64,000 bases of DNA, from the NCBI GenBank assembly GCA_006503475.1, contig RSEH01000021.1, positions 1-64,000 of the forward strand, given 5' to 3'. The position numbers and the translations under genes are program-made. Positions 50,682-54,817 of this stretch are shown here, piece after piece. The notes under the pieces were generated by a model. That model saw only the letters and a program-made list of their open reading frames with translations. It searched no databases and was not told the DNA's origin. Source of the DNA: Stentor roeselii. Its lineage: Eukaryota > Ciliophora > Heterotrichea > Heterotrichida > Stentoridae. Every line of letters begins with the position of its first letter. The first letter of the stretch is position 1.

Positions 50682-52058
50682 ATGGAAGAACTCGCCGGTT
50701 TTTCATTGTCTCCAGTTCTTCCTGGGATCTCTTCGGATTGTCGCGAAAAATTCAGGACTTTGCTTAGAAATTCTGATGATTTGAATGATTTTCTTGCTTT
50801 TGATGATGTTGTTGAACTTGCTGCTGAGGATCAGGATTTGGTCAGGGAATAGTAAAAAGTAAATAGTCTTGTGCCTAGGAATGTTAGAAGTGTTCTTAGG
50901 GTTTTACTTGAAATGCCTCAGGATAATGACTCTTTTGATAGGACTTTTAAGTTTCCTTTTGTGATTTCAAGACTTTTAACCAGTAGGTTTGATGGGTTGT
51001 TAGATGAAATTAATGGTGAACTGGAATGGCTTAAACAGATTTTAGGGTTTTTGGAACAGCCGTCTCCTTTGAATAATGTGTTGAGTAATTATTTTGCTGA
51101 TCTTTGTGAGAATTTACTGGGAAGGGATAAAGCTTTGATGAAATTGATGTCCCAAACAGGATTCGAATCACTTTTTAATCATCTATCAAACAGGAACTTG
51201 ACTGGCCTTATTTCAAATATCATGATCAAAGCCAGTAAGTCAAAGAAATTAGAAATGATAGTCAGCCAAATCATTAAAAAACTTGCCTACGGTATAAACG
51301 AGGTTCAGACATGCTACAATTCCAGCGAAATCATCTGTTCTGGAATTTCAGAAGACCTAATATACAACCTCTTCAAAGATTTTTTCGAAATTTTATTTGA
51401 AAATTGGGAAAATCAATGCCAAGAAGTAAAAAAATGCAAGTTAAAAGTAATAAAAGCTTTTTTAGAAAAAGAAAAAGACCTGAAAATCATCGATGAAGAC
51501 TCATGGGGATCTTCTTCAACAATTATATTGATTCTAAAGTATTCAGAAGTGTTAAAGTCAAGTCTTGACACTTCAAAAAACGACGAAATTTTAACTTCTA
51601 GCTCTAAATCAATTCCTCGAATAGGAGAAACCTGTTTAATCGCTTTAGACATCTGCGCTCTTCTGGCAGACATGAGACAACCATCAATAAATTCCTTAAT
51701 AAACGAGAAGAAAATTATCGAAAACGCTTTGATTTTATTTAAAAGACATCAACTAAGTTCAATGTTTCATACTTGCTTCACAAACTTCATCCTAACCTAT
51801 TTAAATTCAGACTTATCACAAGAAACTGCTTTATTTTTATATCATTTTCTTAGTCAAAACTTAGGAATCGTTGAAAATAATGATATTTGTCGAGGGTTCT
51901 TCGCAAACTGCTTGAAAACTGCTGCGATTCTTTTGAAACAAAGCGAAAATAACTTGCTTATTCAAGAAGTTCTTCATAGTCAGCCTGGGTGGACAACGCT
52001 TCAAACTTTGATCATGTCGAAAATGATGATTAACTCAAGTTTAATAGATTTCTTTTAA
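50682..52058 (+). CDS. SAPS-domain regulatory subunit of protein phosphatase 6 (one 15-nt intron)
   Basis: Exons 50682-50851 and 50867-52058 give 453 residues. Splicing at 50852-50866 rebuilds a Tyr codon across the junction (R-E-Y-L-V-P-R-N-V). The body is an all-helical ARM-like repeat protein; F-K-F-P-F-V-I-S-R-L-L-T and F-L-E-Q-P-S-P-L-N follow the SAPS domain of SIT4-associated and PP6R proteins. These hold the PP6 (Sit4) catalytic subunit and choose its substrates. It is shorter than animal PP6Rs (about 850 residues), lacking the acidic tail. If the intron is kept, the frame stops at once at TAG. Confidence 0.82.
50852..50866 (+). other. 15-nt spliceosomal intron
   Basis: Reads GTAAAAAGTAAATAG. 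It has the GTA start, A at position 10 and TAG end. Removing it joins the SAPS gene's N-terminal exon to the conserved domain in frame. Confidence 0.9.
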
Positions 52059-52084
52059 TTCAATATTAATTACTTTAGCCATTC

Positions 52085-53821
52085 ATGTAACTAAAACTTA
52101 GGAACGCATTCAACTCCAAGGAGGGAAAAGGGATTAAACCTATTTCAAAGTCTAAAGAACCGAGAATTCCTAAAAGTCGACCGGCTGAAGGGTTTGACTT
52201 CAAAAGTACCCAACATTTGAAAGCAGTCAAAACTTTACCGCAGCTTATTGATACTAAAGCGATATCCAAGCTTCTGCCAAAAAAGATCCCCACTGAAAAA
52301 GAAAGACTTTACGAAGAAAACCTAAGCCTAAAGCAAATGCACAACGCAATCCTCGAAGAAAACATGAAACTTCGAACGAAAGTTCAGCAACTCAAGAAAA
52401 GATCAGAAGGTTTATCAGGTGAAAGTCCTTCAAACAAAAACATGAATTTCGTCGACAGGCTGAAAAGTTCAATAAAAGAAATGAAATCTGATCTTCAATC
52501 AAAAAACAAGGAAATCACTGAATTGAAGAAGCACATTCGATTCACTAAAATAAATGAACTAGAAACTGAGCTCGAGTTTCAAATGAATGAATGTGAAAAG
52601 TTGAGATCAGCTTTAAATGAAATTTCAGTAAAAAAACTTGACAGTCTAGAATCTAATCATTTTAAAGGAGTCCCTAATGAAAAAGAAAACTTTAAGAAAG
52701 AAATAAAAGAACTTAAGGAAAAATTAACAAGTTCTGATCAAAACTTTAAAAAAATTCAGGAATCGAATGAAAAATTGAATAAAGAAAAAGAAAATGCTTG
52801 TCAATTAGTGAAAGAACTGGAAAATAGGATTAAGGAGCTTGAAAGTTTAGAAAATCAACAAAAGGGTCTTAATGGAGGTTTAGGTGGCCAGGTGGAAAAT
52901 GTTTTCAATCAATTTTTAGAGTTTTTTAAGAAAAATTCGATTTCTGTTGAACAGTGGGTGAAAAGTCTTACAAACCAAGACGAACTCACCAGAGATATCT
53001 TAAAAATGGCCATTGAACAGGACTCTATTGATATCAAAGATCAAGATTTTGAAGAATTCTTTAAATCTCATTCAAAAACTTTCATCAAATCAGCTGATTT
53101 CATTAAAATTCTCGGTTCTAGAATGAAAAATGATTACAATATCGATGACATTTTCGAAGTACTTAAAGGAAGAGCAGGAATTTTCAACAAAACTTTAAAA
53201 AAACTAGAAGAAAAAATCACAAAAATCTCTAAAAATGATAAAGTTGACAAGGAAACTCTTGAAAATTTCCTAAAAAAAAAACTTTTTAGTCTTGAAAGTG
53301 AGTCAGAAGAGCAAGTTTTAATCAATCATCTACTCGGAAGTGAGCAAGTTGTTCAAAAGTCCTTAATACTCCAAAAGTTCTTTAAAAACTTTAAAGATTT
53401 CGAAAGTTTCACGCTTGAAGAGTTCCAAAACTACCTAGACCGTCTTTCAAGCTACTTATCAAGTAACTTCGAGACATGCATATCTTCAATCCAAGAGCAC
53501 AGTCAATTTAAAAGCAGAGTCTCACTTTCCTTCCTTTTCCAAGAACTATCCTCATCAGGTCTGACAAGTTCAACAAAAGAAAAATCCTGTCTAAGGTCTT
53601 TCCTGATTTTTCACTCAAAATCTCCAAATCAAATCGACTACCTGAAAATGATTCAAATACTTTCAAAAAAAACTTACGACAAGTCAATTTTCAGTCATTT
53701 TGAAAAACCTCTGAAAAAAGAAGTCCTAAAAGCTTCAACCTTAAAATCCTCAGGGTCTTCAGAAAAAATAATCCCTTTGCGATCAGAGACAATGAAACAA
53801 GGACGAAAGGTAGAAACTTAA
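52085..53821 (+). CDS. Long coiled-coil protein; start codon split by a 15-nt intron
   Basis: The frame is open upstream of any usable ATG back to G at 52102. Directly before it lies a 15-nt intron (52087-52101), and before that AT at 52085-52086. Splicing makes AT+G = ATG, then A-A-C (Asn), giving M-N-A-F-N-S-K-E-G and a 573-residue product in frame. Unspliced RNA would read ATG-TAA, start then stop. The protein is basic at the N-terminus, then coiled coil at about 75-260, then a helical region (about 260-560) without known domain. It lies 26 bp after the SAPS stop on the same strand. Confidence 0.78.
52087..52101 (+). other. 15-nt intron inside the start codon
   Basis: Reads GTAACTAAAACTTAG, with the same GTA, A10 and CTTAG as the introns of the Tctex1 and ZMYND12-like genes. 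The exon boundary falls between the second and third bases of ATG. Confidence 0.82.
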
Positions 53822-53846: not shown

Positions 53847-54452
53847 TTAAAAACAGCATTTTTTATCATTTTTTTCAGTTTTTCCTAAAGTAAAAGCATT
53901 AACCGGCAGTCCAATCTCAGAATGCTCTTGTCTATCCAAGCACATTCGAGTAGCCTCTCTGAAAACCTCATCAATTCTGATATCATTCTTCGCGGATACT
54001 TCACAAAACAATGTTTTATGTCGATTTGCCCAGTCACTAGCAGTTGCACTGTCGATTTTCCGACAATCATCCAAGTCACATTTATTTCCAACAAGAATCA
54101 CAGGAAAAAAACTATCTTCTGTTGACCTTCTTAGAATAAACTCATTTTTCCAATAATCTAGATGTTCAAAAGACTCTTCATCAGTGATATCATAAACAAG
54201 AAGACAAAAATCAGCCCCTCTAAAAAAAGAGTTACTAAGAGATTGAAACCTTTCTTGACCTGCAGTGTCCCAAAGCTGCAAACAAATGTACTTCCCGTCA
54301 ACGATAAACTCTTTGAATAAGAAATCAGCTCCGACTGTTGCTTTGTAAATAAATGAAAATTCTTGTATCACGAATCGATTTAAAATCGATGTCTTTCCAA
54401 CACCTGGGTCTCCCAAGACGATTACTTTTAATTGAGTTCGAGTACAAGACAT
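53847..54452 (-). CDS. Rab-family small GTPase
   Basis: A 201-residue GTPase. G-D-P-G-V-G-K-T-S (residues about 14-22) is the P-loop, T-V-G-A-D-F holds the switch I Thr, W-D-T-A-G-Q-E is switch II, N-K-C-D is G4 and S-A-K is G5. The C-terminus K-K-C-C-F carries two cysteines for geranylgeranylation. The effector region (I-Y-K-A-T-V-G-A-D-F) is closest to Rab7-like members, so late endosome or vacuole traffic is likely. Divergent from the Tctex1 gene with 32 bp between start codons. Confidence 0.92.
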   Translation of the reverse strand: MSCTRTQLKVIVLGDPGVGKTSILNRFVIQEFSFIYKATVGADFLFKEFIVDGKYICLQLWDTAGQERFQSLSNSFFRGADFCLLVYDITDEESFEHLDYWKNEFILRRSTEDSFFPVILVGNKCDLDDCRKIDSATASDWANRHKTLFCEVSAKNDIRIDEVFREATRMCLDRQEHSEIGLPVNAFTLGKTEKNDKKCCF

Positions 54453-54484
54453 GAAAATAATTATATCTACAGTAGTAATAATAT

Positions 54485-54817
54485 ATGGAAGTCAGCTTTC
54501 ATAGTTTTGTAAGAAATACTTAGAAAGAAGAAGCTTGCAAAGATATCGGGAAAATCGTTGAAAAAGTCATGAAAGACTCGATGTACCAACAAGAAAAAAC
54601 TACTGAATGGATCAATAAAATCTGTGATATGAGTTTAAATGCTTTGAAAAAAATCAGTCCGAACTTTAAGTACATGGTCAACTGCATCATTGCGGAAAAG
54701 TCTCAGATTGACGTTCAAAACTCTTGCTTTTATTCACCTTTCGATGCGAATTGTTTGATATCCTGGGAGAACCAGAACTTGAGTGTTATTGTTAACTTAT
54801 TCGCAGTCGCTTTATAG
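54485..54817 (+). CDS. Tctex1-type dynein light chain (one 15-nt intron)
   Basis: Exon 1 (54485-54508) codes for only eight residues, M-E-V-S-F-H-S-F; exon 2 is 54524-54817. The product is 105 residues. V-E-K-V-M, then F-K-Y-M-V-N-C-I-I, then S-C-F-Y-S then W-E-N-Q-N-L-S-V-I-V follow DYNLT/Tctex1 chains, which dimerise on dynein intermediate chains of cytoplasmic or axonemal dynein. Without splicing, translation ends at TAG after 13 codons. Convergent with the next gene, 8 bp between stops. Confidence 0.9.
54509..54523 (+). other. 15-nt spliceosomal intron
   Basis: Reads GTAAGAAATACTTAG. GTA start, A at position 10, CTTAG end. Retention gives an in-frame TAG. Confidence 0.9.

Follow-up and report, generated by a model that had tools for sequence, protein, structure and literature searches.

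How can a long open frame be translated when it has no start codon at its beginning? The question is raised by a locus in the window, by which we mean the whole stretch of 64,000 nt that was analysed (bases 1–64000 of contig C137); the genome searched comprises 44.4 Mb in 522 contigs. On the + strand, the frame 52091–53821 is open through its length, and its first ordinary in-frame ATG is found only at 52337–52339, codon 83 of the stop-to-stop frame. Immediately upstream, the letters AT (52085–52086) are followed by a 15-nt element, GTAACTAAAACTTAG (52087–52101), and a G (52102). Splicing out this element would join AT to G and produce a 573-codon frame, in which the AT is the coding part of exon 1, and exon 2 (52102–53821) supplies the G of the start codon, 572 codons and a TAA stop. 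In the unspliced RNA, the ATG at 52085–52087 is followed directly and in frame by TAA (52088–52090). An initial annotation had described this anatomy, and its coordinates and letters, including the A at position 10 of the intron (52096), the 573 residues and the AUG-UAA reading of the unspliced form, were all recovered from the sequence.

The element has the make-up of a heterotrich-type intron, with a length of 15 nt, GTA…AG borders and an A at position 10; it lies in phase 2, its length is divisible by three, and it holds an in-frame stop, the TAA at 52088–52090. No in-frame ATG occurs upstream, and an in-frame TAG at 52076–52078 excludes an in-frame start within exon 1, leaving the splice-made ATG as the single in-frame start before 52337. 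Start contexts in this window are loose (the -3 base at 24 ORF starts is T in 12, A in 9 and C in 3), so the TTC ahead of this ATG was not counted against it. One could dispense with splicing altogether, by assuming that translation begins at 52337, the first ordinary in-frame ATG and residue 80 of the spliced product, or that the locus is a decaying copy or contains a sequence error. Among the 25 window frames of at least 300 codons, some of which are not genes, the first ATG falls within the first 8 codons in 15 and even later than in the window gene in 3, which leaves some room for such a start. However, 52337 lies inside the conserved core of the protein and a start there would cost it the conserved KERLYEEN motif, the 572 codons form an intact frame, and the 15-nt element agrees in place and signals with an intron of the gene's family (see below), making an unspliced gene barely credible.

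A tandem ORF on the same strand (50913–52058 from its first ATG, +) is separated from the split ATG by a spacer of 26 nt (52059–52084), which contains the in-frame TAG; elsewhere in the window, tandem ORFs of 200 codons or more are separated by as little as 10, 61 and 62 nt. If transcription begins past the upstream stop, the 5′ leader would measure about 26 nt or less, giving a very short exon 1. Fusion of the upstream ORF and the window gene into one intron-joined gene was rejected, as no 15- or 16-nt GTA…AG segment joining them was seen, and so was a further intron with its 3′ end at the TAG of 52076–52078, where the 15- and 16-mers lack a GT start. Just 5′ of the upstream ORF there is a further 15-nt intron candidate, GTAAAAAGTAAATAG (50852–50866), and a Ras-family GTPase gene (53847–54491, -) is convergent with the window gene. 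Scans of the window for Rfam families and tRNAs gave nothing. The introns point to a heterotrich ciliate as the source of the DNA. In this genome TGA seems to act as a stop codon, with matched kinase tryptophan codons being TGG in 14 of 14 cases, yet long frames hold 33 TGA against 195 TGG.

A match to the intron pattern is by itself weak evidence, because an ATG followed directly by a stop also precedes 3 of the 202 window frames of at least 100 codons. The initial annotation had likened the element to three other introns, unnamed; candidates in the window with GTA, A at position 10 and TAG begin at 50852 (+), 54509 (+) and 44877 (-). A window-wide scan for frames bridged by 15-nt introns gave 6, compared with 3, 2, 6 and 1 in controls, with no clear excess.

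Conservation among paralogues, rather than pattern matches, is what decides in favour of the intron, which is well supported. Searched with the whole protein, the same genome gave 29 matches at E ≤1, the protein itself counted. The core block conserved across the family (52250–52639, +; …KERLYEENLSLKQ…), which begins 5′ of the first ordinary ATG, gave 26 matches at E ≤0.001, again with itself included. Starts were read for 24 of these 26 (C233 and C481 were left out), and a 15-nt intron was found at the homologous place in 8 of the 24 members, the window gene among them, and not in the other 16. In the seven paralogues the intron sits downstream of an ordinary ATG, and in six of them it splits a Met codon, typically as MS[FY]PxM^KLD. 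The exon junctions read MSFPHM^KLDQK (L003), MSFPQM^KLDQK (L005), MSFPQM^KLDPR (L007), MSYPSM^MLDPR (L009), MISLPKM^KTDKK (L039), MSYPSM^KLETK (L048, at G000:C371:115700-117200) and MSAET^KFNSH (L049), next to M^NAFNS in the window gene. Although an A at position 10 was no criterion in reading these introns, it is present in 8/8; the 3′ ends are TAG in 4 and CAG in 4, and 7/8 begin with GTAA and carry an in-frame TAA. In L048, the intron-like 15-mer GTACAAACTATTCAG starts with GTAC and is stop-free, such that its retention would leave the frame open and add five residues; it is possible that L048 represents an intermediate between intron and exon.

Together with the sequence itself, the introns at the same place in seven paralogues support the proposal of a 15-nt intron within the start codon of the window gene. 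Its leader bears a weak likeness, as judged by eye, to the MS[FY]PxM exon. The protein reads to us as coiled-coil-like; a Pfam search returned no family above the cut-off, and a PDB search gave 6 weak matches, the best at E 0.02. One family member, L008 (C16), has an EF-hand above the Pfam cut-off (PF13405), and the window protein shows none.

We suggest, with a probability of roughly 0.75, that GTAACTAAAACTTAG is a genuine heterotrich-type spliceosomal intron whose splicing makes the only usable start of the gene, that it is spliced constitutively with a built-in fail-safe, and that the arrangement derives from an internal Met codon. In the ancestral gene, the intron would have interrupted a Met codon within the coding sequence, at around the sixth position, as in MS[FY]PxM^KLD. 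In the lineage of the window gene the upstream ATG would then have been lost, a historical step that we infer from the paralogues, and since the gene has no upstream ATG, the split Met codon would serve as its start. Removal of the 15 nt would join AU to G into a start codon. On an unspliced RNA, ribosomes would start at AU plus the intron's own G, meet UAA at once and make no protein, and such retained RNA would presumably be lost to nonsense-mediated decay (NMD).

The dependence of output on splicing had led the initial annotation to propose a possible on/off switch, in which controlled splicing would leave an AUG-UAA RNA that silences the gene under some conditions. The idea gains something from the Arabidopsis NIP5;1 mRNA, where the available text of PMC11915504 describes boron-dependent ribosome stalling and decay at the hexamer AUGUAA, and from the recurrence of the same architecture in 13 SNF1/AMPK-like kinases described below. 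It does not fare well against the family data, however: the intron is common to seven paralogues in which it lies behind an ordinary ATG, and any phase-2 intron with GTAA as its first letters will automatically place a TAA behind the split codon. This TAA is equally present in paralogues with the internal intron, and no special purpose is needed to account for it. Nothing in the sequences analysed pointed to regulated retention. Repeats were looked for around the intron and none were found. A promoter and terminator scan gave 1 promoter-like site versus 0.7 expected, although it covers bacterial signals only and says little. We consider regulated splicing of this kind improbable and favour constitutive splicing with a fail-safe. 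The fail-safe argument is itself weakened by the report, in the available part of PMC5014332, that the ultra-short introns of Tetrahymena, Oxytricha and Stylonychia with lengths divisible by three are depleted in stops.

Further information on the history of the intron comes from family members in which the same segment is coding. Of the 16 members without the intron, two (L002 and L006) read the segment as codons, L004 does so doubtfully, and in 13, L041 among them, no counterpart was recognised by eye. L002 (C365), the nearest full-length paralogue at 33% identity, has a start codon that matches the split one of the window gene, its alignment to the window protein begins at the residue immediately after the intron, and the 15 nt serve as coding sequence in it (ATG CAA GAC TTA AAT AGA), with the 5′ splice signal lost. 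Its 15-mer retains TAG and the A at position 10, and the second base alone sets it apart from a canonical intron of 15 nt; hypothetical splicing would give ATA, not ATG. It is identical to the intron of L005 at 12 of 15 positions, and a match as good to any of the 8 family introns was reached by a fraction of 0.0001 of 20000 coding 15-mers. In L006 (C356), the flanks MSYP and KLDQK are kept, with precisely five codons added between them (MSYPLE-GNLYK-KLDQK); the 15-mer itself, with 9/15 matches (reached by 0.044 of null 15-mers), contains no GT, and it was accepted as coding mainly on the grounds of both kept flanks, the exact number of extra codons and the absence of GT. L004 was not counted as a coding version, since a fraction of 0.143 of null 15-mers equals its 8/15 matches, and L041 was dropped because its segment is misaligned in spacing, despite a coding label on the tree.

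In a tree of 24 family cores, rooted at the midpoint only, L006 groups with L009 (88/65), and the window gene with L002 and L004 (91/87). Stars mark 3 of the 21 inner branches, and the labels for intron and coding states are unclustered, with 500/500 shuffles as low; the intron is found on either side of the deepest split as drawn. The ancestral state is uncertain, given that the intron is absent from 16 of 24 members and that the tree is weak, but we hold with moderate confidence that the intron is old and that the coding forms arose by later conversions. The opposite course, intronization, would take a coding start such as the ATG CAA of L002 as the older state, a single change to ATG TAA creating the stop and the 5′ splice site at once. 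That L002 stands one base short of a canonical intron, with its TAG and A10 in place and a likeness to the L005 intron that so few coding 15-mers equal, speaks for such a history. That the deepest split as drawn has the intron in both of its branches speaks against it, as does the position of the clear coding copies beside intron-bearing relatives, and one old intron with later conversions calls for fewer coincidences, even if branch support is moderate and the root a midpoint one. We regard intronization as unlikely.

Is a start made by splicing peculiar to this family? Genome-wide, the TAG form of the pattern, ATGTANNNNNNANNTAGG, occurs 126 times versus 45 for a reversed control, and the CAG form 78 times versus 8, while a form splitting the codon as A^TG showed no excess across the genome (55 versus 57 in the control). 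When spliced frames that reach 60 codons or more and have no upstream ATG in frame were counted as split starts, 3 were seen among 100 of the 126 TAG-form matches examined, namely the window gene, C19 and C208. Among the 78 CAG-form matches (73 in one scan and 5 read as kinases), there were 7 split starts, all in kinases. The spliced frame continues for at least 60 codons in 30 of the 73 scanned: split kinase starts account for 2 of these and members of the window gene's family with an upstream ATG for another 2 (L003 and L005), and 25 are open upstream as far as, or almost as far as, the limit of the short segment and were taken as internal introns. These counts (3/100 and 7/78) do not establish a genome-wide excess of start-splitting introns. 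Another CAG-form match, L206 (C429:140315-140785), has a 73-codon frame and no upstream ATG, and is possibly a further AT^G start. In two very similar neighbours, L076 and L077 (C179), an in-frame phase-2 15-nt intron candidate splits an internal ATG codon.

C19 and C208, which have AT^G starts and no in-frame ATG upstream (the two besides the window gene among the other 99 TAG-form matches), both encode a protein kinase domain (PF00069, E 1.1e-81 and 1.9e-79). In the PDB, C19 is matched best by AMPK and MARK kinases, and it is in this sense that we call them SNF1/AMPK-like. Searching the genome with the N-terminus of C19 gave 53 matches, of which starts were read for 32, and also reached two kinases of the TAG form outside the 100 examined (C503b and C417). 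Of the 24 closest paralogues, 13 have a 15-nt AT^G intron (L121, which is C19, L124, L128, L129, L131, L132, L134, L135, L136, L139, L141, L142 and L143) and read ATG-TAA when unspliced, although the script required ATGTAA and an AG followed by G, so these features are true by definition. An A at position 10 (13/13) was not required by the script, nor was it required that no ATG stand in frame between the upstream in-frame stop and the split codon (0/13 have one); the introns end in CAG in 7, TAG in 4 and AAG in 2. None of 8 kinases read from the other 29 matches has an AT^G start. Two kinases, L122 and L129, contain a second 15-nt intron candidate within a conserved kinase stretch (LYE^IIE), which would offer an internal check that introns of this size occur in this genome.

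The architecture is not unique to the window gene, and the 13 of 24 kinases may make the case more strongly than the window gene itself does. On the kinase tree (86 columns, 3 of 29 inner branches starred), the start label needs 8 changes, which suggests repeated loss or gain of the start introns, though the starred branches force 1 change only and 46/500 shuffles are as low. A joint splicing gate, in which the AT^G introns of the window gene and the 13 kinases would be modulated together and signalling genes switched at the first codon, can be imagined, but we consider it distinctly improbable. From the two families taken together, start-by-splicing looks both real and recurrent in this genome, in the window gene apparently because it lacks an upstream start, and likewise in over half of the close kinases. 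If splicing is confirmed, this would be a clean case of a protein whose start strictly requires splicing, and in an organism whose introns rank among the smallest known. An exon 1 of possibly under about 30 nt would also be a hard test of the spliceosome, acting on a 15-nt intron beside the cap.

How does this compare with known systems? Heterotrich ciliates such as Stentor coeruleus and Blepharisma stoltei have tiny spliceosomal introns. With those described in the available text of PMC9505925, the window intron shares its 15-nt size, the A at position 10 and its place near the 5′ end of the gene, towards which those introns are biased. In Stentor, 15-nt introns (8005, or 90.90% of all) are reported there to have a branch-point A at position 10. 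Heterotrich introns are predominantly of 15 and 16 bp (PMC9942806; PMC11441545, as far as available), with about 95% being 15 nt (PMC11441545), so nearly all would have lengths divisible by three. Unlike these, the window intron lies inside the start codon, and the phrase “start codon” has 0 occurrences in the available portion of PMC9505925.

In-frame stops in short ciliate introns of lengths divisible by three have been read as an NMD safeguard in Paramecium and other ciliates (PMC5014332, available part), a study covering five genera, none of them heterotrich. As in such NMD-monitored introns, retention of the window intron would lead to an early end through its in-frame stop; the difference is that here the stop comes immediately after the start codon and no peptide would be made. 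The AUGUAA in the unspliced RNA is identical to the NIP5;1 hexamer, which resides in a 5′ UTR (PMC11915504, in part), whereas in the window gene it would go with splicing. The use of the same 15 nt as an intron or as five codons resembles intronization and de-intronization (exonization) in Paramecium (PMC9612004) and fission yeast (PMC3629103); the conversion here is suggested by the paralogues of one genome, and, according to the available part of PMC3629103, most putative cases there were disproved by transcripts. The appearance of these 15 nt in either state across paralogues makes intron-exon conversion testable within a single family.

Genes whose start codon is interrupted by an intron are of a known kind, and annotation formats allow for a splice-interrupted start codon. 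The literature searched, which covers few subscription papers, yielded no recognised report of split start codons in other eukaryotes, nor of one in heterotrichs or one conserved in a gene family. Compared with known split starts, those seen here are set apart by the 15-nt size of the intron, by the AUG-UAA that arises automatically in the unspliced RNA, and by their recurrence within gene families.
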